Origin: Pagrus major
Lineage: Eukaryota > Chordata > Actinopteri > Spariformes > Sparidae
Length of the DNA: 64,000 nt
Assembly: GCF_040436345.1 (NCBI RefSeq)
Contig: NC_133236.1
Span: forward strand, 16,137,466-16,201,465
Direction of reading: 5' to 3'
The notes under the pieces are model-generated. The model made no database searches and was not told the origin of the DNA. It worked only from the letters and a program-made list of their open reading frames with translations. The translations under genes were made by a program, and so were the position numbers. Shown piece after piece: positions 21,797-51,602 of this stretch. Within the stretch, counting starts at the first letter, position 1. Each line of letters starts with the position of its first letter.

Positions 21797-24700
21797 CTAC
21801 TTGGTTTTACTTTCTTGAGCAGGTCTCTTTTGCTCCAACTCCTGGTTGGTCCAAACCACCTGGTTTATGAAGGCAAGGCTCTGCTCATCAACCTCTGTCA
21901 GACGGATGTCACACTCTGTAATGCTGCTGTTGTGAGACATCGCCTCCTCCAGAGCTTTACCTCCATCCTGCACACACACAGGTAGGGAGAGAGAGAAATA
22001 AAACAAACACAGTTGGCAATGATGCATGCCCATGTTGAACACATCACAGGATGCCGTTCTGGGAAGGTCTGATGAGAGTCTTGACAACCTTGAAAAATCA
22101 CCCCTCAGCAAATCTCTCTGTCCCAAATAGCCCGCAATATCTGAGCTGCTTATTGTGAGTGTCACCAGTGTTTTATTATTGTGTCTGAAACAGGCGTTTC
22201 TATTTTTGTGGAGAGCAGACCAAGGTCACAGATATTGATTGAACTGAACGTTGCATTTCGGCTATGTGGGTGATTTTTGATCCTCCGCAGTATATTCCAA
22301 CGGAGATACATACTGTACAGTGAAATCTTGAAGAGCAGAGAGCATGAGAAGGAGAAAAATCTGATCTACCTCTCCTGGGGAAACAACACTTACTCAGCTT
22401 TCCATTATAGCATGTTTTCCACACATCTATGAATAATTGAAACTCCTTGTACTTTGTGTCTGCTACCTTCGCTAACTATGTCTACACAGGCACTAGCATG
22501 GTTTGGGAATGAAGAAAATCCAGCATCCACACACAGAAGGTTCATCTGCTGAGGAAATTTGATAATTTTTATACGAGAACTAGTTGCCATGTACATTGTT
22601 ATTGTAAAAACAAAACCTTTAAGGATTTTAAAGTTTTTGTTCACATTTCTTTTATACACTTTTTGGAAAAACAGATATTTCTATTTCCATACCATATCTT
22701 GAGAATATGATATCTGTCGATATATCACCAAATTCTGCTCTGTTTCCTCCATTATAAGGCAGTCAGGCTTTGAGGCGTGATAATAGATTTTCTACAGTTA
22801 GTTTGACGTTCTTTTCCAGATTTAATGCAGCTCAAAGTGCATCTAAGTGCAAGTATAGCTGAAGTTAAGGAAATACACATAGTCTCATGAAATTTATCCT
22901 AAATTGAGCTTGACAAGCTGGCACTGCAATATAACAAATCTGACTGTTAAGACTTTTAACCCTTTTTGATTTGAGTAACAACATGGTCTTTTCTCTGGCA
23001 CCCCCCTCAGGTAAAACTCACCACACCCAGGTTGTTGCAGGAGAGATTGATGCTCCTCAGGGTGCTATTCTGAAACAGCACTTTAGACAGTGCAATAGCA
23101 GTAGGTGCTGTCGCCTCATTGCCTTCCAGGTGCAGGCGACGCAGGACGTTGTTGCTCAGCAAGGCCTTGCCAATTGCCTCACCCCCTTCGTCTCGCAGAC
23201 GGTTGAGACGCAGGTTCAGTGACAAAAGGGTGGAGTTCTTGGACAAAGCATTTGCTATAGCTTTGGCTCCCGGGCCTGTAATATTGTTGTCACACATGTT
23301 CAGGATCTCCAGTTTACTCCTATTGAGCAGTTTGCCGATGGCCCTGGCTCCTTTGTCTCCGATCAAGTTGTGAGAAAAGTTGAGCTCCCTCAGGGACGGG
23401 TGGTCCAAAAGGTGTTTCACCAGCACCCTGCACTGTTTGTCTTCAATGTGGCTTTGATGGAGCCTTAGAAGCTGTAGAAACAGGTTTTGCGAAGATTAGC
23501 AAGGTTATGTGATGTATTGCAGAAAGAATTTGATCACTAAGAGTACAGATAAGTATGAAAGCACATTTCCACCAGTTAAAGAGAAAAAAATTAACGAAAA
23601 AAAACAACATAATTATGGGATGGAAATTTGGAATAATGATAAAAAGTCAAATTATGAGATAAATGTTGACTTTAGTCTCATCATTTTGACTTTCTAATGT
23701 AATAATTATGACTTTAATTTTATAGTTACGACTTTCTTTCTTCAGTGTGCACTGTGTTTCTTCAACTGTTGGTTTGGCAAAAGAAGCAGTCTAAATTATC
23801 GCATGGGAGATTCTGGAGGGCATTTTTTCATTATTTTCTGCTATATTATAGACGATTCATCAAAACAATTATCAACCGTTTAATCAATCATAAGTTGCTG
23901 CCCTACAATCAACTGCAATAATCTTGTTTACTGTTCCCATATCATGCACAGAAACCAGTAGCAGATATATGCCATGTTCTCCAGCAGTGATAAATTACTG
24001 TGACAAAAATGTTGTGGCAAATAGTGACTTATTTAGGTTGCAGCCAGAGGCTCTGCTGTCTTTTCTTTGACATTAATCAAGCATGAATTTAATGCTTGGG
24101 TACTGCCAACAACAATTTCCCTGTTTCATGTCATCCGGGACTGTAAAATGTCTGTAAATGATGCTTTGTTACTGGCAAGAAAGTCAGAAGTGCTGAATTA
24201 CAACAAACAAACATCCTCCAGACAATCGGAGCTACAAAATGCTGCATTTTATCAGCAGGAATCAATATTCACCTTTAGAGTCTTACAGGACTTCAGGGCC
24301 TTGGCGAGGGACTCACAATCTCTGTCGGTCATCTCAAACATCTTCCATTCAAAGTTCATACCGCATTGTTTGACCCTGTACACCAAATGGAGCTCTTCCA
24401 GGTTCGTCAGCTTGTTGAGCAGGATGTTAAAGTCAAAGTGGTCCATAGACGGGCCATCATACTCATTGTCACTCGCCAACTCTGAGCCATATTCCTCTTC
24501 CTCCTCCTCCTCCTGGGGCTCCTTGACAGGCGGCAGGAGTTGGGAGATGTCCAGCCTCTTCACATAGTTCTTACAAAGAGGCACCATCGCGAGAACTGTC
24601 TTTGTCTCTGTAACATCTGGGATAAAAAGCTCAATAATGTTCTCCAAGTATCTCTCAAAGAACATTCGTTTCCAGCTGTGGCCATAATGAGAGACGTCAC

Positions 24701-26524: not shown

Positions 26525-29400
26525 CAATTGAATGTGCATAAAGCTTAAAGTTGCATATTATATGGCAGGTATTTGACAACATTAAGAAACTAACTTAACA
26601 CTATTTTTTTATAGTGCAGCAGACATATAAGATTCATTAATTAACTTATTCAAAGTTGAAATATAATGTCGAAAACTGATGCATTTTTAAATGCTAGACA
26701 GATGTCTGTCCATATGCTGATTTGAATACGACACAACTTCCCCACAAACACAAGAATAAAATACAGAATTTGAACATTTTGCAAAAATGAATTCATTCTT
26801 GAACGTAAAGGCAGTGTTATGTAAATGCAGGAATAAAAGAGAGTTGCCTGCAGATGAGCACAAAATTAACATTAGACTGCTAATTATTTAATCACAGTAT
26901 ATATCTCATCAGTTGGACATAAAAAGAGATGTTATATGAGTGTGTGTTTTGAGGTCTGTGTGACATCACTGTTTACAAGAGGCTGCTGGGTAGAGCCTGA
27001 TCATGCTGTGAAGAACATTTGGAGTCCACAAAACTGACAGATGGACCACGGATATGGATCATGGGCCTTTTGGACACGAGCACGCTGTGAATCCATCTTT
27101 CTTACAAAACAACAACACAGAACAGGTGCACGGTGACAGTGTAGCGGGTCAGAAATCAGTAGAGACTGCATGAAAAACAAGCAAAAAAGTACAGTAAATA
27201 TGATTTTCCCCATTCCCCAATCAAATCTGCTGTGAAGATAAATTAAAATTCTGCTTGCTGGTTGCTTGTTCAAGCTTTAACATATCAGAAAATAATTTAA
27301 AATGTCCACAACTTCCCAAATCCCAAGGCAATCTATTCCAATTTATTTTCAAAAAACAGCACAAAAACCCAAAGATATTTGGTTTACTATAATATGTCAA
27401 AGAAAAACATCAAATCTACACATTTAAGAAACTGGAACCAGTACATTTTGGGCATTTTTTGCTCTAAAACACGTCTGAAACCATCAATAGTTGCAGCTTA
27501 TTTTGCTGCCTATCAGTATTGTAATTTCAGCTTGAGCTACTTTCATGCATCATTCATAGGTAACTCGTTCACATGTGGATGGAGGCAGGGAGGTGATGCA
27601 GCAAAAAAATGACTCCTATGAAGGGCTGGCCAAGAGAGAGGGAGGGAGGGAGGGATGGCTGTAACTGGCATCATAAGGTTGCATCAAGAGTGGGATGGAG
27701 GGTCGGACGGAGGAATGAGAGGCTCCAACTGTAGCCCCGAGGCAGTCCATCACTGTCGTCCTCGTGTAATACGTCCTGACAGACACACGCTTCCTTCGTA
27801 CTCTGGCTTTAATGGACTGGCGTGACATCAGCCATCCCCAGCACAGGAGGCAAACTCTCTCTGTGAGCTGTTGTTCCAGTGCACTCGAGTCAGTGTGGGA
27901 TGAATCACCGTGTTGGGTGTCCCTGAATATGCAAAAAACAATAATAAAAAGAACTGTACAGGTTCACTGATCAGCTCAATAATCATTGAACACATAATAA
28001 TGATTGACTTATTGATTGATCGGTGAACTTATAAATGAATCCCCAAAAATACAGTGTGTGTGGAAATTTGTTTGCATTTCTGTTCGCAATTAATCAATCA
28101 AACTTTATTTATATAGCACCTTTCAAACAAATCAAAATGCATTTCAAAGTGCTTTACAAGTGACAGAAAAAAGAACATGGATTCTTACATCACAAGTGCT
28201 TTTTCTAGCACAATGTAACAACCATGTTGACAGTTTCAGAGTACTTCTTCAGTGAATTTTCATCTTTTTAGTCAGTAATGAAAAGGGAGTAATCTCTCAC
28301 AAGTCATATAGTAAAATCCTGGTAATACCCTGCAAACAGACAAGAGAGAAAGTGCTCCGGTGGTGTGCGTTACCAGGTAAGGATTGATGTCATTTTTCAA
28401 CTTAAATAGAAACATTGCCATAGTTTCCAAAGTAAATCAAGGTACATTTTGTGGCACTTTGAGCACAACAAGCGGAGTGTCCCATTTAGTTCCATTACTT
28501 TAAGAGAAGGCAGACATCTCTACAGCTGATATCTCCAAAGCTCAAACCAAAACAATCTAGATGAATAAATCGCACTACAGGTAAGAGGAAAAATGTGTAT
28601 TTTTGATTTTGGGATGAACTGACCCCATGATCATTATGAAGTAGTAGTATTGTGTACGTTCAAACCTTTTTAAATGTATAATGTGCTCATTCATTAGAGG
28701 CATATCAGGAAAAGAAAAAGTGTTACTGACAGCATCAATAATGGCTGTTCTTCAAGTGCCCCAGTAAACCATGACAATGAAGCAGCAAGAACAACATCGG
28801 GACCCAGAAGCTGAAGCAGCTAAATGGAATTCAGCCATGATCATGTCTTTTATTTATTTACATCTTTGTGATTTCTACTCTTACAAGTCAAAATGTCTTT
28901 TAAGTAAAATGCTAATCTATTATCTGCCCAAGAACTGTGACTGAAAAGGTGTAGCTGGATCCTCTGTCAATATTTGAGAGAAGCATCTGCAGGTGCTTGT
29001 CATCTCCTCCTGGTGTCAGCAGGTGGAGCTGGGGCCTTGTTGATGTGACATCACATGAAGACCATAAGTTTCTGTGCTGCTCCATAAAACCTCCAGGTCT
29101 GATTTCACAGAGGCACAAAGACTGAAGAAAGCCTCAGAGTGGAACAACCGTGAGAACGTATCTGAAAAATAAGAATTTTAGGCTAATTTTATTTGTTTAT
29201 TGTTTATTTTCTTAATTTATGTTTGTGTGAGACATCATATGATTATTTAACAATCGGTTGATAATAAATAATAGAAAATAAATAACCAGGAAATGACTGA
29301 ATGTGAAGCTGAATGTATGTAATTTTGTTTCCATTATTATGACATACTTAAAGCATGATTGTAAAACATCTGCAGGGATTTTCTTGCTGAAATAGTTTCA
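26525..29400. other. Intergenic, tcte1 to tandem unit A
   Basis: No exon could be supported. A SINE/LINE-tail-like block (caaactttatttatatagca.. to ..aaagtgctttacaa) lies at 28091-28170, a family A fragment at 27345-27475, and GGGA-rich low-complexity DNA at 27630-27655. Small ORFs at 27616-27828 and 28912-29118 have no recognisable features. Confidence 0.5.
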
Positions 29401-30249
29401 GATACTCATCAATTATTTTATCAGAACAACCTGTATACATTTGTCATTTTAAAAGTCTAAATGGACTTTTCATGGCTGTTTTCGCCTAGTTATATCCAAT
29501 CCAACACTGCTGTCATGTCCACTAACCCAGAGGGACAAGAACTCTTGTTAGCTTAAAGTCATCAACTTTTTTTTTCTTAATTTCTTTAACAAAATCAAGT
29601 AATCTGCGTTATTATTAGCCTTGATTTCTTTATTTCGCCTGTGTTTCTTTGCAGAACTGTGTGGACCGTCATATTGAAATGTTATCAAGACATAGGCCTA
29701 CATCAAGCACACTAATAGGGCAAACACATTTATATACAACAATGGGATTAATATATAAACAACATTAATACAGAGCCCCTGGAGTCCCAAAAGCTTATAT
29801 TTTGTGACAGGATTCATCTTTTGTGCGCACAAGTAAAATCAATATTGTGCTCGAAATGTGTAGCCTAGATTTTTTCTTCCCAACCCCGAAATAAACTGAA
29901 ATAGCAACAATGATCAAGTCGAGATAATTTGGCCAGGACGGCCGAAAATGCAGGTTATGTCCTGTGTGTGTGTGTGTGTGTGTGTGTGTTTATCTACAGC
30001 TGTGCTTAAAGGGCGCACTGAATTTACCCTGGCATTAATAGTGACGTGACAGACGCGCCAGGACAATGACATGAATTCACCTCTTCTATTTTTTGAATAT
30101 GAACATACGTTATTGATCCTATTAGACTGATTGATTTATTGATTGATTGATTGGTTGATCAGTGTGAGTGGAAATTGTTCGCATTTTCTGTTTGCTATCT
30201 GTAACTATTTGGTGGTATTACTGCAACTTCACTTCCGCCAAAATGTGTA

Positions 30250-30420
30250 TGTGCCGCACGTGTCCGTGTGCGCATGCGCGTGTTTGTGTGTGTCCGGTGC
30301 GCGCTTTGATTTGCTTTGATGTGCTTTGATGTGCTTTGATGATGTGCTTTGATCAAAGCTAAATAGTGACGTCATAGAATCTTGGATGCATAAATACTAA
30401 TGCAGGTTCATAAAAGCTAC
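30250..30420 (+). promoter_or_regulatory. Compact promoter of long ORF A: E-box, NRF1, six TCF/LEF-type sites, CRE, TATA-like boxes
   Basis: In order: CACGTG at 30257-30262; GCGCATGCGC (NRF1-type) at 30270-30279; CTTTGAT at 30304, 30314, 30324, 30334 and 30347 plus the inverted ATCAAAG at 30352; a perfect CRE TGACGTCA at 30367-30374; TATA-like CATAAATA at 30389 and CATAAAAG at 30409. The translation start follows at 30545. Site identities are consensus matches; use in vivo is inferred. Confidence 0.6.
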
Positions 30421-30544
30421 TTTTAGTTTTTACTAAAAACAGGTGCTGACCAGAACAGACCACACGCAGGAACCACAGCTAGAAACTACACATAACTGGA
30501 CAATTTTTAGCAAGTTTCAAACCAACTTAACGAAAGAAAAAGAC

Positions 30545-33427
30545 ATGTACGCAGTGGAGCAGTCCGCATTCCCGATGGATAACAGTATCGTTATCTATCC
30601 AGAAGCTGTGAAGCCCATCGTGAACAGACATTTTGATCAAATCTCTGAAGCACAGTGGAGCCTGTTAGCTGATGGGATTTGTGAACCAGGAGTCGACACA
30701 ATACTGACTAATATGCTGTGTGAAATCATACAGACACTCTCTGCATCAGCTGTGAGCATAATCTTACCAATGTTTCAGGAGCGTCTACTGAGGAATGATT
30801 CACAGGCTGAAATAAGTACAGCTTTGGAAAACCTCAACACGCAGCTGGGAGACTCCCTCATTGGTACTTTTGCTGAAGTTCTTCACGTCTCACCGGAAAA
30901 ATGTGAGAGTGCAGAAAAGCTGACAGAGCTGGTCGAGGAGGAAGTTCTACAAAAGGTAACCTCTGCTGTATCTCTGGCCATCAACAGCCCTACACAGCAG
31001 GCAGGGTCTGCCATTTTTGTATCTGGCTCCATGTCTAGCACACCGTCTCTTTGTCAAATGGTGAGTCATGCTACCACATGTCTGAAAAGATTTACAAGTA
31101 TGCTGCACTCCAGTTGCCTATGCTGTTCGGGGTTCGAGTCCACAACACCGACCTTTGAACCAGAGAGATGTGAATCGTCTCAGAGCACGAAATCCAAGAT
31201 TTCTGTTCCCTACGTGAGACTTGAATCTTCTCAGAGCACGAAATCCAAGATCTCTGTTCCCTCAGAGAGATGTGAATCGTCTCAGAGCACGAAATCCAAG
31301 ATCTCTGTTCCCTCAGAGAGATGTGAATCGTCTCAGAGCACAAACTCCAAGATCTCTGTTCCCTCAGAGAGATGTGAATCGTCTCAGAGCACGACATCCA
31401 AGATCTCTGTTCCCTCAGAGAGATGTGAATCGTCTCAGAGCACGAAATCCAAGATCTCTGTTCCCTCAGAGAGATGTGAATCGTCTCAGAGCACAAAATC
31501 CAAGATCTCTGTTCCCTCAGAGAGATGTGAATCGTCTCAGAGCACGAAATCCAAGATCTCTGTTCCCTCAGAGAGATGTGAATCGTCTCAGAGCACGAAA
31601 TCCAAGATCTCTGTTCCCTCAGAGAGATGTGAATCTTCTCAGAGCATGAAATCCAAGATCTCTGCCCTTTCTGTGACTCAAGAAGTGGCTAAAATCCTTG
31701 ACAAATGGTCCACTGAAACACTGGATATCCGAGAAGAGGCTGACTCTGCTCTCCAGCCTCCCAGCCCCTCTTTGGATGCTTGTGATGCAGCGTTTGAAAT
31801 TGTCTCCATTATAAAGAATGACCTTCACTATTCGGATGGCGGAGATGATGGATGCAATGAGAAGAGTAGCTCATCCAAACATCATTTCAATTTGAGATTA
31901 ATACTTAAAAATGTGAGAGACTTTTTTGCCTCACGGGCCACACTTTCAAATGACACCGCAAACCAAGAAAAGTGCAAAAGCAGATGTTTTAAGTTTGCAC
32001 GAAAACAATTTAAGAAACTGACATCAGAGCTGAAAACATCGCTTGAGAAAGAAGACCTTGACTTTATTGTGCCTCTCAGTCGGGATTCAGGGTCCTCTCA
32101 GCCAACACTCAAAAAAGAGGATGCATCTGATGAAGGTTTTAATTTACCGGGAGCTGTTCCAGAGTCTCCAAGACCAAAATATGAGACTTGCATTCAGACC
32201 AGGACGACGCCATTCATCAGTGTAGAACGGACGCTGTCCTCTTCACTAGTTTATGATTGGATCAAATATGCTGTTGAGGCTTTGTTTAATATTTTAAACC
32301 TGCCAAAGAAATCTGCACCACACGCCAAGAAAAACCTGAAAACCTTGGCCAACCAGCTTTCAAAAGACTTGTCTGATGAATTATATGGTCATGACATGGC
32401 TATCAGCACATATCAAAATCCCTTAAATACAGTGAGAGGAAGTTTAGCTGACCCTGTCATCATTCGTCTTGGGCGGTGGGTGAACTCAAGTGGGTTCAGC
32501 CCTTCTCTTAAAAGCATCATGATTGAGGATTCAGTGGGAAAGTTCTTGCAGCGGATGTGTCTCTGGGTAGAGAAGGAGCAATCAAACCAGGCAAGTCACA
32601 GTGAGAAAGTGTCTGGTGCGCTAGGCGACATCGAAGACCTAATCCAAAAAATAGTGACCCCACCAGAAGAAAAGGACGCCATCACACCAGAGCCCCTTGA
32701 AGCCAGCGACAGACACGCTACAACACCCTATTGTTCAACTCCAGTCTTACCTTTCAACGATTTCTGCAATGACGATGACAGTGATGACAGGGAGTTGAAT
32801 GTGACGACTGATGATAGTCTGATCTTGGAGGAGAACAATGTCAGAGTGGCTTCAGGAGATATATCTCCTAAAGTAACTTCTGAGAGTAGACTGGTGTCTT
32901 CCCGCTGTCCTTCAGTGTCTCAAAACTACAACGTGACAAGCACTGAAAAGTCAGACAGGGGATTCTCATTAGAGTCAGCTGACACCTCATCTTGTATGTC
33001 AGAGAGGACAACCAACAACATTATCACGGTTCTGCTCATGAGACTCATCATGACTGCCTCTCAGAAAACCAGAAAGTCCACTCAGGCAAAAGACATCGAC
33101 AACATCGTGAAGCGTCTCTCAGAAATGGCGCGGGATAACATCAACATTGCTGACTCGGATGTCAAAAAAACTAGAAACAACATGAAAAAAATCAACAAAG
33201 CAGTGATCAAGGACCTTAAGAAGGAGTTCGGCTCTTCTGAAAAGCTACTGGAGGCTGCAATGGAAACAAACAATTCATCTTTTGATGAAGCTGTAATTAA
33301 GTATCTGAAAATCCATCTGGATGGCCTCCAGAGACTAAAAAGGTCTGTAGTTGCCAGATTCTTTTCAAGGGTGCGAAAAGCTTTCACCAAACCCTTTAGG
33401 TGCATCACTGTGTGCAGCGACGTCTAA
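30545..33427 (+). CDS. Unrecognised long intronless ORF, copy A (960 residues)
   Basis: I do not recognise this protein. A single uninterrupted ORF of 960 codons starts at the first in-frame ATG (30545, gacATGtac); 34 open codons precede it back to a stop. No signal peptide or clear membrane span is seen. The N-terminal ~200 residues look helical (SEAQWSLLADGICEPGVDTI, LVEEEVLQKVTSAVSLAI). Residues 206-375 are ten 17-residue repeats (SERCESSQSTKSKISVP type). Residues 376-960 alternate predicted amphipathic helices with Ser/Asp-rich linkers, for example YDWIKYAVEALFNIL, KKNLKTLANQLSKDLSDELY and VGKFLQRMCLWVEKE. The C-terminus is basic (VARFFSRVRKAFTKPFR). Near-identity to copy B with few replacement changes argues that it is translated. 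The compact CRE/TATA promoter and lack of introns would fit a germ-cell gene, but that is inference. An upstream noncoding exon joining at the CAG before 30443 is possible. Confidence 0.75.
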   Translation: MYAVEQSAFPMDNSIVIYPEAVKPIVNRHFDQISEAQWSLLADGICEPGVDTILTNMLCEIIQTLSASAVSIILPMFQERLLRNDSQAEISTALENLNTQLGDSLIGTFAEVLHVSPEKCESAEKLTELVEEEVLQKVTSAVSLAINSPTQQAGSAIFVSGSMSSTPSLCQMVSHATTCLKRFTSMLHSSCLCCSGFESTTPTFEPERCESSQSTKSKISVPYVRLESSQSTKSKISVPSERCESSQSTKSKISVPSERCESSQSTNSKISVPSERCESSQSTTSKISVPSERCESSQSTKSKISVPSERCESSQSTKSKISVPSERCESSQSTKSKISVPSERCESSQSTKSKISVPSERCESSQSMKSKISALSVTQEVAKILDKWSTETLDIREEADSALQPPSPSLDACDAAFEIVSIIKNDLHYSDGGDDGCNEKSSSSKHHFNLRLILKNVRDFFASRATLSNDTANQEKCKSRCFKFARKQFKKLTSELKTSLEKEDLDFIVPLSRDSGSSQPTLKKEDASDEGFNLPGAVPESPRPKYETCIQTRTTPFISVERTLSSSLVYDWIKYAVEALFNILNLPKKSAPHAKKNLKTLANQLSKDLSDELYGHDMAISTYQNPLNTVRGSLADPVIIRLGRWVNSSGFSPSLKSIMIEDSVGKFLQRMCLWVEKEQSNQASHSEKVSGALGDIEDLIQKIVTPPEEKDAITPEPLEASDRHATTPYCSTPVLPFNDFCNDDDSDDRELNVTTDDSLILEENNVRVASGDISPKVTSESRLVSSRCPSVSQNYNVTSTEKSDRGFSLESADTSSCMSERTTNNIITVLLMRLIMTASQKTRKSTQAKDIDNIVKRLSEMARDNINIADSDVKKTRNNMKKINKAVIKDLKKEFGSSEKLLEAAMETNNSSFDEAVIKYLKIHLDGLQRLKRSVVARFFSRVRKAFTKPFRCITVCSDV
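31160..31669 (+). repeat. Ten 51-bp coding repeats in ORF A
   Basis: Each unit encodes a 17-residue Ser-rich motif of the form (S/P)ERCESSQSTKSKISVP. Unit 2 reads YVRLESS.., units 4 and 5 have N or T for the first K, and unit 10 ends ..MKSKISAL. The period is a multiple of three, so copy changes keep the frame. Long ORFs in other frames here (31092-31496 -, 31221-31649 +) are by-products. Confidence 0.95.
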
Positions 33428-33485
33428 ATAACCATCTCGACCTTTTTCACCGCCCCCCACTTCTTTTAACATCTCGAAGCCTTCA

Positions 33486-33611
33486 GCATTCATCTTGAAG
33501 GAAACAGGTTCACAAACTATCACACCTTCCGTCTCACCTGAGTTGTAGTAGGTCAGGTGAAGTGGAAATTAGCTGTGGAACTAGAGAACTTCTTTCCTTC
33601 AAGATGAATGC
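33486..33611. repeat. Fold-back element 3' of ORF A
   Basis: The 19-mer at 33486-33504 (gcattcatcttgaaggaaa) is perfectly inverted at 33593-33611. An inner pair CACCTGA/TCAGGTG sits at the apex and the sequence between is partly self-complementary. It lies 59 bp after the stop codon, so it may form a hairpin in the 3' UTR. Confidence 0.8.
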
Positions 33612-33629
33612 CATCAATGGACCTTTCTC

Positions 33630-34035
33630 ACAGCAATGGTCAGGGTTGGATTCCCAGCCTCCATCGTAGCTTTGTGGAGTTTCTTGACTCCCTGGGTTAG
33701 TACGGTTTCCTCCGAGTCGCTTCGGTTCCCCAACATTACATTCGTAATATAAAAAAAAAACGCTAACCAGGCCATTCAGGCAGTGGTCAGGGTTGGATTT
33801 CCTACCTCGATAGTTGCTGTGTGGAGTGTCTTGACTCCCTGGATTAGTACGGTTTCCTCCGAGTTACTTCGGTTCCCCGACATTACATTCGTAATGTAAA
33901 AAAAACATACGCTAACCAGGCCATTCAGGCAGTGGTCAGGGTTGGATTTCCTGCCTCGATCATTGCTGTGTGGAGCTTCAAGACTTGCCATGTTGCGCGG
34001 GTTTACCCCGGGAAATCCGGTTTCCTCCCACATAG
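33630..34035. repeat. ~135-bp tandem repeat, three units, behind ORF A
   Basis: Each unit contains ggtcagggttggatt, a tgtggag..cttgac block, tacggtttcctccgag, cattacattcgtaat and an A-run. The last unit ends gggaaatccggtttcctccc, resembling a motif widespread in animal interspersed repeats. A possible AATAAA signal follows at 34068-34073. Confidence 0.75.
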
Positions 34036-35134
34036 AAAATAATTCAAATCCGATATAACAATATTAAAATAAAAGAATCAAAATTGAAAAATAAAAGTAA
34101 ATGTTTGTGTTTTTATAATGTATACTCAAGCTGATTCAAAAAAAATAAACAATGTGTACGTTTATATAAACTTATTTTATTTCAATTACTTTTTAGATAC
34201 TCATCAATTATTTTATCAGAACAAACTGTATGCATCTGACATTTTAAAAGTCTAAATAGACTTTTCATGGCTGTTTTCACCAAGTTATATACAATCCAAT
34301 ACTGCTGTCATGTCCACTAACCCAGGGGGACAAGGACTCTTGTTAGCTTGAAGTCATCAGACTTTCTTCTTTCTTAATTTCTTTAACAAAATCAAGTAAT
34401 CTGCATTATTATTATCTTTGAATTCTTTATTTCGCCAGTGTTTCTTTGCAGAACCGTGTGGAGATGAATATTTAAAAAGACATAGCAGGCTTTGTGACAG
34501 TTTTGCCTGCCTATTTGTCCAATTTAACCTCCAAATATCTATAAACTGCAAATGAATAAAGTTATTACCATTATTATCTTGGAATCTTTTCATTTTCTGC
34601 AAGGATTCAGTTTTTTTATGAATTGGTTATAGTTCACTATAACCGCAAACCTGGTTATAGTTGATTCACAGTCGTGTCCTGTCACATAGGTGGAGGGAAG
34701 TTGCAAAACTCAAGGTACGTTATGTTTTCAGAAAGTACAGATGTTTGGGGTTTTTTGCACTGTCTCGATGGTGTCTGTGATATCCAGTCCACTCTGGTTC
34801 GTTAAAGAGCCAGGCATGGTGACTGACTCACTTTTGTTCAAGTATATTCAGTAAAAACGGATGACTCATATTTAATGGCAATGCCGTCCAGAGCTTGACA
34901 CTAAATGTTAAAAACATACCATAATTAAAGAGAAAACCAATGATTCTTTTTCTACTATTTTTTGAATATGAACATACATCTTAGTCATTGATCCTATTAG
35001 ACAGACTGATTGATTTATTGATTGATTGGTTGATCAGTGTGAATGGAAATTATTCGCATTTTCTGTTTGCTATCTGTAACTATTTGGTCGTATTACTGCA
35101 ACTTCACTTCCGCCAAAATGTGTATGTGCCGCAC

Positions 35135-35315
35135 GTGTCCGTGTGCGCATGCGCATGTTTGTGTGTGTGCGCATGCGCGTGTTTGTGTGTGTCCGGTGCG
35201 CGCTTTGATTTGCTTTGATGTGCTTTGATGTGCTTTGATGATGTGCTTTGATCAAAGCTAAATAGTGACGTCATAGAATCTTGGATGCATAAATACTAAT
35301 GCAGGTTCATAAAAG
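35135..35315 (+). promoter_or_regulatory. Compact promoter of long ORF B
   Basis: Same arrangement as copy A but with two NRF1-type sites (GCGCATGCGC at 35145-35154 and 35169-35178) instead of one. CTTTGAT occurs at 35203, 35213, 35223, 35233 and 35246 with inverted ATCAAAG at 35251. The CRE TGACGTCA is at 35266-35273, followed by the same TATA-like boxes. The extra NRF1 site lies in a locally duplicated gtgtgcgcatgcgc segment. Confidence 0.6.
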
Positions 35316-35443
35316 CTACTTTTAGTTTTTACTAAAAACAGGTGCTGACCAGAACAGACCACACGCAGGAACCACAGCTAGAAACTACACATAACTGGAC
35401 AATTTTTAGCAAGTTTCAAACCAACTTAACGAAAGAAAAAGAC

Positions 35444-38122
35444 ATGTACGCAGTGGAGCAGTCCGCATTCCCGATGGATAACAGTATCGTTATCTATCCA
35501 GAAGCTGTGAAGCCCATCGTGAACAGACATTTTGATCAAATCTCTGAAGCACAGTGGAGCCTGTTAGCTGATGGGATTTGTGAACCAGGAGTCGACACAA
35601 TACTGACTAATATGCTGTGTGAAATCATACAGACACTCTCTGCATCAGCTGTGAGCATAATCTTACCAATGTTTCAGGAGCGTCTACTGAGGAATGATTC
35701 ACAGGCTGAAATAAGTACAGCTTTGGAAAACCTCAACACGCAGCTGGGAGACTCCCTCATTGGTACTTTTGCTGAAGTTCTTCACGTCTCACCGGAAAAA
35801 TGTGAGAGTGCAGAAAAGCTGACAGAGCTGGTCGAGGAGGAAGTTCTACAAAAGGTAACCTCTGCTGTATCTCTGGCCATCAACAGCCCTACACAGCAGG
35901 CAGGGTCTGCCATTTTTGTATCTGGCTCCATGTCTAGCACACCGTCTCTTTGTCAAATGGTGAGTCATGCTACCACATGTCTGAAAAGATTTACAAGTAT
36001 GCTGCACTCCAGTTGCCTATGCTGTTCGGGGTTCGAGTCCACAACACCGACCTTTGAACCAGAGAGATGTGAATCGTCTGAGAGCACGACATCCAAGATT
36101 TCTGTTCCCTACGTGAGACTTGAATCTTCTCAGAGCACGAAATCCAAGATTTCTGCTCCCTCAGAGAGATGTGAATCGTCTCAGAGCACGAAATCCAAGA
36201 TCTCTGTTCCCTCAGAGAGATGTGAATCGTCTCAGAGCACGAAATCCAAGATCTCTGTTCCCTCAGAGAGATGTGAATCGTCTCAGAGCACGAAATCCAA
36301 GATCTCTGTTCCCTCAGAGAGATGTGAATCTTCTCAGAGCATGAAATCCAAGATCTCTGCCCTTTCTGTGACTCAAGAAGTGGCTAAAATCCTTGACAAA
36401 TGGTCCACTGAAACACTGGATATCCAAGAAGAGGCTGACTCTGCTCTCCAGCCTCCCAGCCCCTCTTTGGATGCTTGTGACGCAGCATTTGAAATTGTCT
36501 CCATTATAAAGAATGACCTTCACTATTCGGACGGCGGAGATGATGGATGCAATGAGAAGAGTAGCTCATCCAAACATCATTTCAATTTGAGATTAATACT
36601 TAAAAATGTGAGAGACTTTTTTGCCTCACGGGCCACACTTTCAAATGACACCGCAAACCAAGAAAAGCGCAAAAGCAGATGTTTTAAGTTTGCACGAAAA
36701 CAATTTAAGAAACTGACATCAGAGCTGAAAACATCGCTTGAGAAAGAAGACCTTGACTTTATCGTGCCTCTCAGTCGGGATTCAGGGTCCTCTCAGCCAA
36801 CACTCAAAAAAGAGGATGCATCTGATGAAGGTTTTAATTTACCGGGAGCTGTTCCAGAGTCTCCAAGACCAAAATATGAGACTTGCATTCAGACCAGGAC
36901 GACGCCATTCATCAGTGTAGAACGGACGCTGTCCTCTTCACTAGGGTATGATTGGATCAAATATGCTGTTGAGGCCTTGTTTAATATTTTAAACCTGCCA
37001 AAGAAATCTGCACCACACGCCAAGAAAAACCTGAAAACCTTGGCCAACCAGCTTTCAAAAGACTTGTCTGATGAATTATATGGTCATGACATGGCTATCA
37101 GCACATATCAAAATCCCTTAAATACAGTGAGAGGAAGTTTAGCTGACCCTGTCATTATTCGTCTTGGGCGGTGGGTGAACTCAAGTTGGTTCAGCCCTTC
37201 TCTTAAAAGCATCATGATTGAGGATTCAGTGGGAAAGTTCTTGCAGCGGATGTGTCTCTGGGTAGAGAAGGAGCAATCAAACCAGGCAAGTCACAGTGAG
37301 AAAGTGTCTGGTGCGCTAGGCGACATCGAAGACCTAATCCAAAAAATAGTGACCCCACCAGAAGAAAAGGACGCCATCGCACCAGAGCCCCTTGAAGCCA
37401 GCGACAGACACACTACAACACCCTATTGTTCAACTCCAGTCTTACCTTTCAACGATTTCTGCAATGACGATGACAGTGATGACAGGGAGTTGAATGTGAC
37501 GACTGATGATAGTCTGATCTTGGAGGAGAACAATGTCAGAGTGGCTTCAGGAGATATATCTCCTAAAGTAACTTCTGAGAGTAGACTGGTGTCTTCCCGC
37601 TGTCCTTCAGTGTCTCAAAACTACAACGTGACAAGCACTGAAAAGTCAGACAGGGGATTCTCATTAGAGTCAGCTGACACCTCATCTTGTATGTCAGAGA
37701 GGACAACCAACAACATTATCACGGTTCTGCTCATGAGACTCATCATGACTGCCTCTCAGAAAACCAGAAAGTCCACTCAGGCAAAAGACATCGACAACAT
37801 CGTGAAGCGTCTCTCAGAAATGGCGCGGGATAACATCAACATTGCTGACTCGGATGTCAAAAAAACTAGAAACAACATGAAAAAAATCAACAAAGCAGTG
37901 ATCAAGGACCTTAAGAAGGAGTTCGGCTCTTCTGAAAAGCTACTGGAGGCTGCAATGGAAACAAACAATTCATCTTTTGATGAAGCTGTAATTAAGTATC
38001 TGAAAATCCATCTGGATGGCCTCCAGAGACTAAAAAGGTCTGTAGTTGCCAGATTCTTTTCAAGGGTGCGAAAAGCTTTCACTAAACCCTTTAGGTGCAT
38101 CACTGTGTGCAGCGACGTCTAA
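35444..38122 (+). CDS. Unrecognised long intronless ORF, copy B (892 residues)
   Basis: Tandem paralogue of the ORF at 30545, with the same start context and same C-terminus (RCITVCSDV). It is 68 residues shorter, exactly four 17-residue repeats (6 units at 36059-36364 against 10). Outside the repeat block I count six replacements by eye: (A numbering) R396Q, C477R, V569G, G650W, T714A and A725T, with about seven silent changes. Such a low replacement load in a ~790-residue region suggests either a very recent event, gene conversion or purifying selection. Function unknown; both copies are intact and could be co-expressed from their near-identical promoters. Confidence 0.75.
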   Translation: MYAVEQSAFPMDNSIVIYPEAVKPIVNRHFDQISEAQWSLLADGICEPGVDTILTNMLCEIIQTLSASAVSIILPMFQERLLRNDSQAEISTALENLNTQLGDSLIGTFAEVLHVSPEKCESAEKLTELVEEEVLQKVTSAVSLAINSPTQQAGSAIFVSGSMSSTPSLCQMVSHATTCLKRFTSMLHSSCLCCSGFESTTPTFEPERCESSESTTSKISVPYVRLESSQSTKSKISAPSERCESSQSTKSKISVPSERCESSQSTKSKISVPSERCESSQSTKSKISVPSERCESSQSMKSKISALSVTQEVAKILDKWSTETLDIQEEADSALQPPSPSLDACDAAFEIVSIIKNDLHYSDGGDDGCNEKSSSSKHHFNLRLILKNVRDFFASRATLSNDTANQEKRKSRCFKFARKQFKKLTSELKTSLEKEDLDFIVPLSRDSGSSQPTLKKEDASDEGFNLPGAVPESPRPKYETCIQTRTTPFISVERTLSSSLGYDWIKYAVEALFNILNLPKKSAPHAKKNLKTLANQLSKDLSDELYGHDMAISTYQNPLNTVRGSLADPVIIRLGRWVNSSWFSPSLKSIMIEDSVGKFLQRMCLWVEKEQSNQASHSEKVSGALGDIEDLIQKIVTPPEEKDAIAPEPLEASDRHTTTPYCSTPVLPFNDFCNDDDSDDRELNVTTDDSLILEENNVRVASGDISPKVTSESRLVSSRCPSVSQNYNVTSTEKSDRGFSLESADTSSCMSERTTNNIITVLLMRLIMTASQKTRKSTQAKDIDNIVKRLSEMARDNINIADSDVKKTRNNMKKINKAVIKDLKKEFGSSEKLLEAAMETNNSSFDEAVIKYLKIHLDGLQRLKRSVVARFFSRVRKAFTKPFRCITVCSDV
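36059..36364 (+). repeat. Six 51-bp coding repeats in ORF B
   Basis: Same 17-residue unit as in copy A. Unit 1 reads PERCESSESTTSKISVP and unit 2 ends KISAP; the last unit ends KSKISAL as in A. The first two and last units are position-matched between copies, so gain or loss occurred in the middle. Confidence 0.95.
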
Positions 38123-38180
38123 ATAACCATCTCGACCTTTTTCACCGCCCCCCGCTTCTTTTAACATCTCGAAGCCTTCA

Positions 38181-38306
38181 GCATTCATCTTGAAGGAAAC
38201 AGGTTCACAAACTATCACACCTTCCATCTCACCTGAGTTGTAGTAGGTCAGGTGAAGTGGAAATTAGCTGTGGAACTAGAGAACTTCTTTCCTTCAAGAT
38301 GAATGC
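38181..38306. repeat. Fold-back element 3' of ORF B
   Basis: Copy of 33486-33611, with both 19-nt arms (38181-38199 and 38288-38306) and the inner CACCTGA/TCAGGTG pair preserved. Confidence 0.8.
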
Positions 38307-38324
38307 CATCAATGGACCTTTCTC

Positions 38325-38730
38325 ACAGCAATGGTCAGGGTTGGATTCCCAGCCTCCATCGTAGCTTTGTGGAGTTTCTTGACTCCCTGGGTTAGTACGG
38401 TTTCCTCCGAGTCGCTTCGGTTCCCCAACATTACATTCGTAATATAAAAAAAAAACGCTAACCAGGCCATTCAGGCAGTGGTCAGGGTTGGATTTCCTGC
38501 CTCGATAGTTGCTGTGTGGAGTGTCTTGACTCCCTGAATTAGTACGGTTTCCTCCGAGTTACTTCGGTTCCCCGACATTACATTCGTAATATAAAAAAAA
38601 CATACGCTAACCAGGCCATTCAGGCAGTGGTCAGGGTTGGATTTCCTGCCTCGATCATTGCTGTGTGGAGTTTCAAGACTTGCCGTGTTGCGTGGGTTTA
38701 CCCCGGGAAATCCGGTTTCCTCCCACATAG
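38325..38730. repeat. ~135-bp tandem repeat, three units, behind ORF B
   Basis: Copy of 33630-34035, with only scattered substitutions by eye. Confidence 0.75.
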
Positions 38731-38890
38731 AAAATAATTCAAATCCGATATAACAATATTAAAATAAAAGAATCAAAATTGAAAAATAAAAGTAAATGTT
38801 TGTGTTTTTATAATGTATACTCAAGCTGATTTAAAAGAAAATAAATCATGTGTGCATTTATATAAACTTATTTTATTTCGATTACTTTTT

Positions 38891-44400: not shown

Positions 44401-47400
44401 ACCGCCGACTGGGACAATTGTTAACTGGTCCAATTTCACTTGATATGCTTCCCTTTGGTGGAAGAAAAGTAAATTAAGCTAGAGTGTGTTTTGTACAATA
44501 GCCGTTTTTTTTTTGAGCCGATACTGATAACCAATGATTTCACATTTTTGTATTTTAAAAAGAAGCTGGTGAACTGTAGTTTATGCACAACTGAGGTTAA
44601 GAAATGCCAACATGTAGTGAGCAAAGACAGGTAACTCAATATCGCCTTCTCTTCTCCTCCTCTGTGTTTATTGGTGGATTGCAAACTCACTTCCAAGGTG
44701 CAAACAGTCACCTACTGTATCTAGGTTTGTAAATGCTGCTCTTGTTAATTCAGTGAAAGCAGTTTGGCTTCATATTATGGGCTTTATTTATTGGCTAGAA
44801 TTTCATCAAAACCAATAAATAGCCAATAACAGAGCTTTCTCCATATAGGGCCATATATAATTTATTGGTCTGATCTATATTGTGGAGACAAATGGAGAGA
44901 AAAAACATCGAAAGAACCTTCATGCAGGATTATTTCCAGTCTTTGCTGCAAGGACAAGTTCTATCATCTGTGTTTGAATATAATCCACACACCACCCCAA
45001 AAGGATATGTTATTAAACCTCACCCTGTTTAACGGTCAGACTGACTCTTATCTGTTCCTTAACTCATTGTTTACCACTCCCGAGGACATTTCAAGGCTTC
45101 CCACTGACCTGACCTGCTGACATCATGGTCACAAGCCATGGTCTCTAAAACAAGGAAAACTCACCTTGATCAGTTTATGTTACCTATTTTTTCTGTAAAA
45201 ATTGGAAAGGTAAATATTATGTATGACATAATGTCTTGCCTCAATTGGGTTCATGTTCACATTTCTCTTAAAAACAAAATCAATCTAACTCTAGGATATG
45301 GCACTACTGGTAACGCACCTCTCACCTTTCCTCTCAGTGATGAGCGTCTGCCGCCTCGCCTTCATGTCCAGGCTCAGGTTTTCCACCATGCTGTTGATGC
45401 AGTTGTCCAGGGCCAGGCAGCGGGTCTGGGACTGGATGGCTTGACGGCAGATGGGACATTCGTCTTTCTTTTTACGCCACTGCTTGATGCAGTGACAGCA
45501 GAAGCTGTGGGCGCAGTTCAGGATGACTGCCTGCAGACGATATCAATGCAGAGTCAATAGTTTATTTCATTGTAGATGTGTTCTGAAACTTCTGAAGTAC
45601 CTCACAGAGGTACAAGTTTTTTTTTCTGATAGCTGTAAATATTTTCATTGCTGTCAAACACAGTCAAAGATTTGTACAGAGAAATCAAATACAGCACTTA
45701 TTGTATTAGTAAAAGCTAAATTGACTCTTAATCTGACCTCGATGAAGAGCTCTGAGCAGATGATGCACTGAAGCTCGTTCTCCAGAACTTCAGTCACTTG
45801 TGTGACTACTTCCTCTTTTTGGGCCCTTGCCTTTTCTTTCTCCTCCTACAAAAATAGACAAAATAATTAATGAAGCTGTGTTGATGCCATGTCCAACTAT
45901 GCAGAAAGCATGCTTATAGGACTGTGAATATATAGTCATACCTTTGTCACTTCCAGCTCTTTGTTTTTGGCCGAGAGAATCTCTTCAAAGGCTTCCCGAG
46001 AAAGAGAAAGTTCGCCTATAACTTTCTTTTGCTGAAGACATTGAAAACAGATAAAAATTAACCAACGTATTAAGAATTTTAGTCCAATTTATGTTTTTTT
46101 ACATCACATTTTAACACTTAATTCATGAGTTGCTTGTACTTGTGCTGTAACTATTCATAAATGTTCCAGTTTAATGCTGCGTACCTCTTGCAGTGCATCT
46201 TCCAGCTGTTTTTTCAACAGTTCCTCTTGTTGCTGTGTTTTCTGTGCCTAAACACATAAAAAAAAAAAGTTTTGATTTAAGAGTTTCGGGATTAGCAGTC
46301 GTTCATACAAAATTTGTGCTCTTTTTATATGCGTCCACATCTTTATGACTATCTGTTGGCCCACACCACATACATAAGTAAAACATTGGAAAAAATGACT
46401 TATTATACATTATTAACACATAAATGAGAGAAAAACAACTTTTTACTATTAGATTGCATATTATGATAAAAGAAATCAAACATTTTGGCATCAAAATAAA
46501 AGACAGAATTCTCTGCAGTAAAGAAGAGTAAACTGAGATCACCAAAAACACATTGTCTTACGCACTGCAGGAACTGTTTGGCCATGCAGATAAGTGTAAG
46601 TTTTAAGTGAAAAGGTTTCAAGGCATTAATCTCTCTAAAATGTGCCACCACACTAATACAATTTGTGCTAAACATAATTGCATGTGTGTTGCTCAAAACA
46701 CTGAACAAAATGAAACCTGAATTTCAGAATCGCAGCACATGTATCCAAAACTATGCGCAGGGCCAGCTATCACGATTTGAGTGAACTGGCCCTTTAAATG
46801 ATCCTGACTTCTTCACTGCTCTGTAATTTAATGTGTTATATGAGGCTGTTTTTATTTTCCAGCAAATCTACATAAAAACTAACATACGACTGAAGAGGAA
46901 AGAAAAGAAAAAGAAGAAGAAGAAGAAGAAGAAGAAGAAGAAGAAGAAGAAGAAGAAGCTACTGAAACACCTCTCACCTCAAGCTGCCTCTTAGTTTCAC
47001 TGAAGGACTTCTCCAACGTCTCCATCCGGTGCATCTTGGCTCTGAGCGTCTCCAGCTGACCTTGCAGCTCCTTGACCTGCTCCTCCCTGAGCGGGTCCGT
47101 CTTCTGGGGCTCTCCCCCTAGTGATGCTACCTGCCTCTGGGTGTCGTCCACCTGCTCCCTCAGCATCAGAATGTTCTGGCTGTACCTGCAAACGTAAACA
47201 AATTTTAACAAAAACATACGGAAAATCAAACTGAGCATCATTAACTCTTTCATTTAATTTGTACAACATCTAAACAACATAAAATATTATGTTGTTTAGA
47301 TGCATGACAAGCACAAACTGAGGCTTACATCTGCAAGTTATCCATGTCGCATGGAGTGCTGGAGCCATCTGAGGGCCGGTCTACTTCCTGGACTTGTCTA

Positions 47401-49905
47401 CTGGTTCCAGTTTCCTCCGGCTGGCTGTGACTAGGCCGCTGCTGGCGTTTCACTGGTGACAGAGGACAGGGCTTTGCAAATGACTTGTCTGCAGAAGAGC
47501 AGCGGTAGAGCTTGGGCTTTGAGGTAGACGGCTCAACTTCATCCACGGCCAACTTCCTCTTGGGCTTCTTGGAAACGTGGGCTGCCTTAGCCCCCTGTCC
47601 ATGTCCCTTTGCCAGGTACAGTTTAATGTCTTTGAGCGGCCGCTGGACGAGGATGTAGTCAAACTCTGCTTTGGTTCCGATTACAGCAACCCCAAGTTGT
47701 ATGGAGTCACCGAGCCTCAGCTGATGGGCTTCTTCCGCAGGAATGCGGTTTCCATTCACCCACACACCGTTCAGACTCTGGAAGAAAGAAGCAAGATGTC
47801 TTTTTCGGATGGTGATACAATACAAAGAATATTTAAAAAAATACATTCTGTGACTTCATTAGGTCAACCTGTTAAATCGAAATGCAATCTAACACAACAG
47901 CCCAGCCTCTACAAAGATAATAAAATTAATTTCACACTATACAGCAGTATTAGTTTAACTAATAATTGATGAGCCATAACATTTAAACCTCTTACAGGGG
48001 GTCTACATGTTGTTGATGATCATCTCAATACAATGTTCTGCTAGGAAACCTTGGATCCTGATCCATGGTTGGGTCTCTGTGGATCAGACTTGTTCCGGCA
48101 TGTCCCCATGGGTGCTTGATCTGATTGATAGTTTGAAAGTGTCCTTATCAATTAACATAAAGTTGAATTTAAAGAACTCAGACAGTTTTATCGGCACTGA
48201 AAATTATCATCTTCATATATATAGATTTTGGGGCAGATATGTTGTATTGGATTGTCTTGTTACCTTGTATCTCATAAGAGGGCCAGGGAGTGTATCATTG
48301 AACTTAAAAAAACAAAGTGATTTGGTTCAAATTTACGCTTCGAAACACCCTTTTGTTTTAATTCTGATTTCAATACTAGATTAAGTATATTAAGTGACCC
48401 ACTCAGTATAGTGGACTGTAACGACTTAGTTCTTTTTGTGCTATAACCTGCAATTACATAAGTAATGAATGGGAGATGTTCGGTATCCAGAGGAGGAAGT
48501 CTCCAGTTCAGAGCTAATTGCCCATCGTCCTCTGGTGATATGCTGAGAGCTCAGGATTTTGTTAAGGCGGTGGACAGCTTTGCACAGAAACCGGATTTAC
48601 CACAAAATTGTGGTTTAAGGTAGGATGTTCCTAATGACTATTTACCCTCATGTTTACACAGAATTTTAAACTTAGACTAGTCGACTAGCCTAAAGGTTAG
48701 AAAACACTCAAAAATTTAGCACAGTTCAAACATTTAAAGTTTAGACATTATCCCCAACTACATGTGTATTTTTTATCTTTAACGCAACAGTTAACCGGTG
48801 TTAACATCAATAATGAGGCTCTTTTTTCTATAATGCAACATGTGACTAGGTAGACATGACATTTCAGTGCAAATTATGTGGATATGTAATTTAAATGTGT
48901 GCATTATTAAAAAATTGAGCATTTAACTGATCGCACCCATGCCTTCTGAGGTAAGAAAGATCACAATGTTTTGCATGTTTATGGATGTCTCATGAAAACG
49001 GCAAAGATTTATCAGGCTAAATGATCAATTCTTAGTTTGACTCAGCGGCCTGACATGTATTTGGGATGGTTGACAGGTGCAGACCGGCTTTTGATTGAGA
49101 AAGCATTGTTTGATTGTAATGTTTCATAGCATATTTTAATGATCTTGTGTGGCTGATAATCGAATTCTGCTGATGTTAAAAATATATTATACAGAACCAC
49201 AGGGCTTCTGTCTACAAAATCATACAGAAACACAAAGGAAAACATATAGAAAAGAATGGTTCGTCGTTGTTTGTTGCCATTTTCCACATCAGTTATAATA
49301 TCTTATTAGAGAATAGTCGTCAGGATTTGTTTGTATAGTAAAATCATTAAAATGTAAATAATAAAAGACAATGCAATACTCATAGGTGAGCAAATAATAA
49401 ACCTGGCTACCTTCCTATCTGTCACTGTCCACTGGCCATCTTCCCTTTGCTTGAAAGTGCAGTGCAGTCTGGAGATCATCAGAGGACAACTTGGAGACAA
49501 CAGCTGGTAGGTTACATCCACACCACGTCCAATGGTGATCTGGACAGCCACAAAACAAACATGTCAACAGTTAGCAAGCTTTCTAGCCTACTGTGCAGCT
49601 CTTTACCCCATTAAGACACACGAATACTCTTATACAACCACAAGCTGAAGAAATAAATAAACACTGAATGCAGAGTTCATTTTGTAAGAAAATCTGAATC
49701 TACTGAGAACTTAAAAAGTTTTATGGTTATGAGTGCAAGGCTAATTTAGCTAAGTTAGTTAGCTAGCATTAGCAGACTGCACCTCAGTATTGTCGAACAA
49801 GCGGAGCCAGTCTGAGTTTCTCCCGACTCTCATCAAACATAAAACCTCTGAGTCCGAACATTCATCCTCCTCGGCCGCAGACGAGTCTGCCGTAACAGTC
49901 TCCAT
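41466..49905 (-). CDS. rnf8: E3 ubiquitin-protein ligase RNF8 (FHA-RING)
   Basis: Nuclear ligase recruited by phospho-MDC1 to DNA breaks, where it starts histone and linker-histone ubiquitination. Nine coding exons: 49783-49905 (ATG 49905), 49411-49539, 47329-47777, 46978-47185, 46185-46247, 45942-46031, 45738-45845, 45326-45530 and 41466-41680 (stop). Phases agree and give 529 residues. The FHA domain (residues ~25-110) shows ITIGRGVDVTYQL, PLMISRLHC and SLNGVWVNGNRI, so the phosphopeptide-binding G-R, S-R-x-H and N-G residues are present. A coiled coil spans residues ~235-390 (YSQNILMLREQ.., AQKTQQQEELLKKQLEDALQ). The C3HC4 RING follows at ~385-425 (QCIICSELFIE, LNCAHSFCCHCIKQW, CPICRQ). 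After ..TERKA, where human RNF8 ends within a few residues, this protein continues about 70 residues as a Ser/Asp-rich tail. Exon 1's donor (GTGCAG) is weak. Confidence 0.94.
42008..42285 (+). repeat. MITE, family B (second copy), in rnf8 intron 8
   Basis: Matches 17443-17726: starts AAAGGGGCACTATCTAG, has aacaagctgttctcagagga and gtttgaagctagaagggtgg, and ends tagtgcacctttaag. Intron 8 (41681-45325) also carries a family A repeat at 42515-42830 and no other supported gene. Confidence 0.75.
46911..46958. repeat. (AAG)n microsatellite beside the rnf8 exon 4 donor
   Basis: A pure AAG run on the plus strand (CTT on the transcribed rnf8 strand) begins about 19 nt inside the intron after the exon 4 donor (GTGAGA at 46977). 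Confidence 0.95.
47778..49410 (-). other. rnf8 intron 2
   Basis: A 1.6-kb intron between the two FHA exons. No other gene is supported; the ORFs at 47577-47969 and 48007-48384 (+) are antisense or random. Confidence 0.7.
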
Positions 49906-51100
49906 CTTATCTCATTCTGTCAGCGGCTAATATCGACCCGAAACACTTGCTATGTTGTTCCTCCGTCCATAGCTAACGTAGTAGCACAAGTGTCAAGATG
50001 GACACTGACAGGGAAGAACCGGAAAACGATTTGCTTGTTTTCAAAATAAAGGCGTCAGACGAGTTGAGCTGACAATTAACTGGCGTTAAAATGAACATTT
50101 TTAATAAGAATACAAATAAAAATAAAAAACACGAGGTGAAACGGCTTTTGAACTGTTTTGTACTGTCCCACAGCCCTCTTGCAATAAGGATGTGCTCCAA
50201 TTAAGACTTTTAATTTAATTTTCAATTAATTTCATTTGATAATTTTACATGAAAAACAAAATAAAATGATAACTAAATAAATATATAAAGCATATTAATC
50301 AAATATAAAATATTTAACAGTGCTTAATTATAGCGAGACATTTTGTTATTTTGTAATCTTAATCCATTTATCAATAAATACATATTTTTTTGGGGGGAAG
50401 ATGCATCATTTTAAATGCATGACTTTGTAATATGTTACACAGGGATGAAAAGTAAATAATTATCCTACAGTTACATGAGTATATATCCTTTCGTATCCAT
50501 TTTGGATTTCATTTTGTGCTACTTGATATTTCTACTCCATTACATTTCAGAGGGAAATATTGTACTTATTTACTACATTTATTATTTGACTTTATAAAAT
50601 GCTGCTTACATATCAATGCATCTGTAATTAAAAAATCCAACGGTATATTAGTGGTAGAAGGAGCATTCAGATAATTTACTGAAGAAGAAGTATCAATATA
50701 TTACTATTAAAGTACTATATGTATGTACTGTATACTTGAGTAAATATAGGCTACTTATTTTTTTTCCACAACCGACATTAAAATGCATTTTAATCATGTT
50801 AATTTGGTACACACTCATACGGAAGTCCTAAAGGGCCATGCATTCATACATTTTATTTCCTCTGTTTTCCTGTGATAACAAGTTAATTTCATTTGTTTTC
50901 TCGAGATCTCGAGTTATTATCTCGAAATAACAACTACCGTTTTCCCAAGATAAAGGGATAATTTTCTTGAGATCTCGAGATAACGAAACTTTGTTTTCCC
51001 AAGATAACGATATAATTAATTCGAGATCTTGAGAAAACAAAACGGTAGTGTATCATCAATGTATTATCAATCATTGCAGGAAACATCATTCAGTGTAGCA

Positions 51101-51322: not shown

Positions 51323-51324
51323 TG
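51289..51324. repeat. 36-bp near-perfect palindrome
   Basis: Left arm cattaactacatagctg and right arm cagctatgtagttaatg (17 bp each) are exact inverted copies separated by AC. It lies at the junction of the HTH ORF and the right inverted arm of the element at 50817-51591. Confidence 0.95.
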
Positions 51325-51602
51325 AGGAGATCTCGAATTAATTATATCATTATCTCGGGAAAACAAAGTTTCGTTATCTCGAGATCTCGGGAAAACGAAG
51401 TTTCGTTATCTCGAGATCTCGAGAAAATTATCTCGTTATCTCGGGAAAACAGCAGTTGTTATTTCGAGATAATAACTCGAGATCTCGAGAAAACAAATGA
51501 AATTAACTCGTTATCACGGGAAAACGGAGGAAATAAAATGTATGAATGCATGGCCCTTTAGGGCTTCCGTACTTTAGGGTTTCCGTACATTCACACTCTT
51601 AT

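Follow-up and report, generated by a model that had tools for sequence, protein, structure and literature searches.

Two long single-frame genes in tandem are members of a dispersed, fast-evolving gene family

Two long open reading frames lie head to tail in the 64-kb stretch of DNA analysed here (the window), where the first-pass annotation had seen a tandem pair of unknown family. The locus raises two questions: are these reading frames protein-coding genes, and do they stand alone as a pair or belong to something larger? We found that both are genes and that they are intact members of a larger, fast-evolving, dispersed family.

The tandem units and their neighbourhood

The window does contain the two head-to-tail units that had been claimed, with the approximate limits given in Table 1. 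Each unit holds one of the intact frames reported earlier, of 960 and 892 codons, and the two share the same promoter layout (CTTTGAT clusters, CRE palindrome, TATA-like boxes) and the same 3′ elements (both parts of a 3′ tail), as had also been stated.

Table 1. Positions of the features of units A and B in the window
Feature	Unit	Position	Strand	Remark
Tandem unit	A	29396..34190	+	approximate limits
Tandem unit	B	34191..38890	+	approximate limits; head to tail with unit A
144-bp upstream block	A	29721..29864	+	found beside other members; unit B without the block
TGCGCATGCGC, NRF1-like site	A	30269..30279	+	three in the window (30269, 35144, 35168), all in promoters A/B
Six CTTTGAT/ATCAAAG sites (TCF/LEF-like)	A	30304..30358	+	promoter
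Six CTTTGAT/ATCAAAG sites (TCF/LEF-like)	B	35203..35257	+	promoter
TGACGTCA (CRE palindrome)	A	30367..30374	+	promoter
TGACGTCA (CRE palindrome)	B	35266..35273	+	promoter
Two TATA-like boxes	A	30390..30416	+	promoter
Two TATA-like boxes	B	35289..35315	+	promoter
Gene, single-frame ORF of 960 codons	A	30545..33427	+	ATG at 30545
Gene, single-frame ORF of 892 codons	B	35444..38122	+	ATG at 35444
51-bp array, ten 17-aa repeats (SERCESSQSTKSKISVP)	A	31161..31664	+
51-bp array, six 17-aa repeats	B	36060..36359	+
3′ tail part 1, self-complementary element	A	33480..33620	+
3′ tail part 1, self-complementary element	B	38175..38315	+
3′ tail part 2, 147-bp repeat	A	33633..33985	+
3′ tail part 2, 147-bp repeat	B	38328..38680	+
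Candidate polyadenylation signal AATAAA	A	34144..34149	+	one of four in the 3′ region
Candidate polyadenylation signal AATAAA	B	38840..38845	+	one of four in the 3′ region

Genes A and B are protein-coding and, judged from the open frame, intronless. The frame of gene A, which is found with 100% identity in the genome at C22:16168010-16170889, contains no stop codon as against 32-75 in the five other frames, and its codon-position bias is pronounced (P=8e-14, compared with 0.44 for a single intergenic control stretch of the same length). The difference in length between the two genes is due to the in-frame 51-bp repeat, present in 10 copies in A and in 6 copies in B. Outside these repeats A and B differ at 7 of 531 synonymous sites and at 7 of 1842 nonsynonymous ones (P=0.02).

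The near-identity of the two copies, noted before, varies along the units. The first 284 bp are 90% identical, and the part of unit A from 29680 to 30093 has no counterpart in unit B, being unrelated to 34477-34962 of that unit. Identity is 100% over the 860 bp from 30301 to 31160, made up of 244 bp upstream of the ATG and 616 bp from the start of the coding sequence. For the coding sequence downstream of the repeats it is 99.2%, and for the 3′ region 98.2%. This pattern would fit an older duplication that was later partly overwritten through gene conversion. Upstream of unit A (27985-28090) lies a short remnant that resembles the unit's 5′ flank (80-85%). No inverted repeat of at least 60 nt was found between 27000 and 42000.

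The pair is flanked by TMEM151 (13524-14996), an LRR exon (23010-23495), RING and FHA exons (within 45294-49563) and Aida domains (52640-52837 and 56358-56711). These domains fit tmem151b, tcte1, rnf8 and aida, in agreement with the location near tmem151b/tcte1 and rnf8 given by the first-pass annotation. What looks like a small DNA transposon lies between rnf8 and aida: two 198-nt arms that are 92% complementary enclose a short ORF (50818-51571), and a similar ORF occurs elsewhere in the genome (stretch L033, 7338-7796).

Open and broken members of a dispersed family

When protein A was searched in six frames against the genome of the window (786 Mb, 25 contigs), 54 matches were obtained; with a subfamily II protein there were 23, and with the C16b protein 41. 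As 48 of 107 candidates were scored in the search with protein A, these match counts are lower bounds. At least 14 members are open in a single frame, with 512-960 aa from the Met, and are distributed over seven contigs: A and B on C22, four members on C19, two on C16, an inverted pair about 11 kb apart on C4, one on C8, a repeat-expanded form on C1 and one subfamily II member each on C4 and C2. The description as a tandem pair consequently falls far short of the number of members in the genome. Two subfamilies with about 25% identity (24-26%) can be distinguished, subfamily I with 12 open members and subfamily II with two.

About 11 further copies, again a lower bound, are broken or partial. 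Those of subfamily I are located on C8 (three), C5, C6 and C7 (19.4M), and those of subfamily II on C18 (three), at C2:3.7M and at C7:3.5M; a match at C7:0.804M was set aside as low-complexity. Many disabled copies had been named beforehand as an argument against the genes. Half of this objection holds for the present genome, in which such copies do exist, alongside 14 open members. No relative was found in phage, viral-contig and prokaryote collections.

The alignment used below comprises 13 members; it excludes, like the omega table, the broken and partial copies as well as the C1 member, because repeats replace the middle of the latter. Within subfamily I, A, B and nine other open members were aligned, with 53-99% identity to B. 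Homology extends across N-terminal, middle and C-terminal blocks, with much of the middle missing from C8a.

The earlier statement that the protein matches no known family was borne out. Pfam (A and B) and NCBIfam (A) gave no match above the curated cut-off, a PDB search with protein A returned nothing below E 0.04, and the 13-member profile found no convincing PDB match (best E 0.099). A Pfam scan of the 13 members at E 0.01 yielded a single stray match in one member (E 0.0022), and the C1 member reached 19.2 bits with DUF6411, below the cut-off of 25. These searches support the view that the gene family is without a known domain.

Conservation among the 13 members is found in the N-terminal block, in parts of the middle and above all in the C-terminal segment RFFxxVxKxxxKPF, which is kept across the subfamilies despite their 24-26% identity. 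V875, K877, K881 and F883 (numbering of B) are invariant; F871, F872 and P882 are nearly so. The hydrophobic moment of protein A has its maximum at this segment, a value reached by 1 of 200 shuffles, and by 15 of 2000 shuffles confined to the last 30 residues. Residues 1-192 come out as all helical in a single-sequence structure model (mean pLDDT 60.8); for residues 375-960 the model is poor (39.0). The SDV end occurs in A and B only, among 14 members, and as it is not conserved a reading as PDZ ligand was rejected.

How fast the proteins change was assessed from 78 pairs, 55 of them within subfamily I. For these 55 pairs, with dS up to 0.47, omega ranges from 0.23 (A versus B) to 1.15 and lies between 0.66 and 0.94 in 50 of them; average constraint is therefore weak. 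The two subfamily II members give 0.73; for comparisons across the subfamilies dS is saturated or nearly so. When regions were considered separately, with at most nine of ten chosen pairs out of the 78 pooled, the lowest omega values were those of the linker 506-560 (0.53), of the repeats (0.57) and of the N-terminal block (0.66); the highest was that of the linker 701-815 (1.06). The C-terminal tail 936-960 reaches 0.93, as there is variation at the residues that separate the invariant positions. In a neutral simulation of one branch with 0.19 substitutions per site, stops numbered 21 on average and at least 11 (50 runs), whereas the 14 open members contain none. The frames are therefore kept while the residues change fast.

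These data bear on two alternatives. First, the copies could be decaying, non-expressed duplicates. Broken copies are indeed present, but noncoding blocks are conserved and 14 frames are open although neutrality would predict about 20 stops in each of them, which renders this very improbable. Second, an immune or conflict family could be involved whose diversity is kept by selection; fast evolution, the value of 1.06 in the linker 701-815, changes in copy number and homogenised tandem copies would agree with that. However, no immune domain was found by Pfam in the 13 members, and only three of the 55 pairwise values in subfamily I reach 1.0 (1.15, 1.01 and 1.00). We consider this second alternative improbable.

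Sequences that accompany the genes

CTTTGAT/ATCAAAG, TGACGTCA and TGCGCATGCGC are predicted sites which we take to be TCF/LEF-like, CRE and NRF1-like, respectively. At least two CTTTGAT/ATCAAAG sites are present within 330 bp of the ATG in 13 of the 14 open members, the promoter of C8a having none; among control stretches, two or more were present in 0 of 164 from elsewhere in the window and in 0 of 56 downstream of members. The clusters are in part short tandem repeats, for which A and B count as a single observation. In subfamily II the sites are kept although the repeats are built in another way, an argument for function. The full CRE palindrome is found within 600 bp in 8 of the 14 members (A, B, the four on C19, C16a and C1); the two copies of TGACGTCA in promoters A and B are the only ones in the window, with 0.57 expected. 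TGCGC(A/G)TGCGC occurs within 330 bp of the ATG in 8 of 14 members, and a TATA-like box within 200 bp in only 9 of 14.

The 144-bp upstream block of unit A has ten matches in the genome, each of them next to a family member, namely eight open ones (A, C19b, C19d, C16a, C4a, C4b, C1 and, inverted, C8a) and two partial copies on C8. The open subfamily I members B, C19a, C19c and C16b lack it. The block of A differs by 11-13% from those of C4a, C16a and C8a, compared with 25-30% at synonymous sites; against C19b the difference of 12% is hardly below that at synonymous sites (16%). When the ten loci were aligned, no sharp common boundary was evident at the upstream edge.

Since the promoter and often the 144-bp block accompany the copies, the family would more likely have spread by DNA, with its regulation attached, than by retrocopying of a message. 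This bears on a further alternative, a testis family perhaps born as retrocopies and similar to the FSIP2 and AKAP proteins, which are large helical sperm scaffolds. The single-frame, helical ORFs and the CRE palindromes would suit such a family, and young zebrafish genes are reported to lean to reproductive tissue (PMC3599513). On the other hand, no Pfam match of that kind was obtained, AKAP-type RII-binding helix motifs in the protein are not beyond chance (3, compared with a mean of 1.3 and a maximum of 8 in 500 shuffles), and plain retrocopies would lose both the promoter and the upstream block that many copies have. A sperm scaffold is unlikely in our view, even as the foremost of the alternatives.

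A domesticated or still mobile element, that is a transposon-like unit with an ORF serving its own spread, could also have carried flanks along. The dispersal of copies over many contigs in company with the upstream block and the 3′ tail would be in line with it, as would the rapid evolution, the broken copies and the inverted pair on C4. Against it, no transposase, integrase or reverse transcriptase domain was found in the 13 members (Pfam, E 0.01), the copies occupy about 25 places (a lower bound), and the ten aligned loci show no evident sharp common edge upstream. We regard a mobile unit as doubtful.

The 3′ tail starts 52 nt downstream of the stop codon of gene A and consists of a 141-bp self-complementary element followed by the 147-bp repeat. 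Their 33 and 51 genome matches, respectively, were grouped by hand into 23 places, 13 at family loci and 10 elsewhere; nine of the latter were read (C23:21.97M was left out). All 12 open subfamily I members have a copy of the tail; it was not found at the subfamily II members. At two places on C17 the tail follows, after about 80 and 97 nt, an unlike, coiled-coil-like ORF of about 200 codons. It begins about 40 nt behind an ORF ending in ESAAR at C16:6.65M, and related ORFs ending in ESAVR lie about 445 nt upstream of it at C6:36.86M and C1:28.83M. A kinase fragment is located about 1.8 kb upstream of the tail at C3:22.52M, and another directly abuts it at C23:22.30M. Both have Pfam scores below the cut-off and HIPK2 as best PDB match, followed by HIPK3 for the former and by ribosomal S6 kinase for the latter. 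One might guess that the ESA(V/A)R ORFs are kinase genes as well. No recognisable ORF was seen at C1:22.62M and C7:3.86M.

From these matches the tail is a low-copy sequence common to genes with unlike proteins, namely the gene-A family, the C17 coiled-coil ORFs, the HIPK-like fragments and the ESA(V/A)R ORFs. The HIPK-like fragments lie near copies of the same tail as that of gene A, but the proteins are unrelated. The tail could, and we put this forward with low confidence, be a common 3′ UTR control module that groups unlike families post-transcriptionally and forms part of the spreading unit; alternatively, it may be an old low-copy repeat that landed near unlike genes. Covariation gave no support to a reading of the tail as an RNA hairpin.

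Proposed explanation and known systems

The explanation that we prefer, with a probability of about 0.5, places A and B as functional genes in an intronless family that is dispersed, evolves by birth and death, encodes an adaptor protein and spread as DNA together with its flanks. Among its rivals we rank the sperm scaffold first, followed by the immune or conflict family, the domesticated mobile unit and, last, the decaying duplicates.

According to the preferred explanation a copy would spread as DNA comprising the promoter, one exon, the 3′ tail and often the upstream block, and would arrive with its regulation attached. Tandem or nearby copies would be made uniform via gene conversion or recent duplication. 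The protein would be a soluble, modular intracellular adaptor with helical blocks, Ser-rich linkers and a 17-residue repeat array of variable length. This modular reading is tentative because the structure models are weak, and the function of the protein is a guess. Its C-terminal basic amphipathic segment RFFxxVxKxxxKPF could dock the protein on a membrane or a partner. Transcription might start from a signal-responsive promoter with the TCF/LEF-like and CRE sites, plausibly in the germ line or the early embryo.

Hatching enzymes, clustered protocadherins and fish TRIMs are likewise multigene families, tandem or dispersed, with single or large exons. Unlike these, the gene-A family has no known domain and a 3′ tail in common with unlike genes. 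Zebrafish orphan genes encode 131 aa and teleost-specific genes 168 aa on average, and nearly 28% of the zebrafish orphans are single-exon (PMC3599513). The present genes resemble them in being putatively lineage-type and single-exon but form a multi-locus family with shared flanks; with 960 and 892 aa the proteins are therefore outliers by those means (PMC3599513).

A lineage-type intronless family is of a known kind, and spread with regulation, together with a tail on unlike genes, would be a variant of it. If the preferred explanation is true, a sizeable vertebrate family without a named domain spreads with its promoter and 3′ end, in contrast to ordinary retrocopies, and its frame stays open even as the protein evolves fast. 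The presence of the tail near coding sequences that differ from each other would allow a direct test of the idea that gene families can be tied together through a shared regulatory end and not through their proteins.

Further observations concern repeats within and behind the genes. At C16:8574000-8583000 the terminal ~270 nt of the coding sequence are repeated four times downstream of the gene with a spacing of ~405 nt, and similar 3′ arrays are present at the subfamily II members on C4 and C2. The member at C1:7.58M (L042:2574-4868) has a single open frame in which the repeat array is expanded and the C-terminal signature occurs three times. In residues 206-374 of protein A each 17-aa repeat has one SQ dipeptide; numbering 10 in A and 5 in the six repeats of B, these dipeptides may form a kinase-target cluster of variable length.
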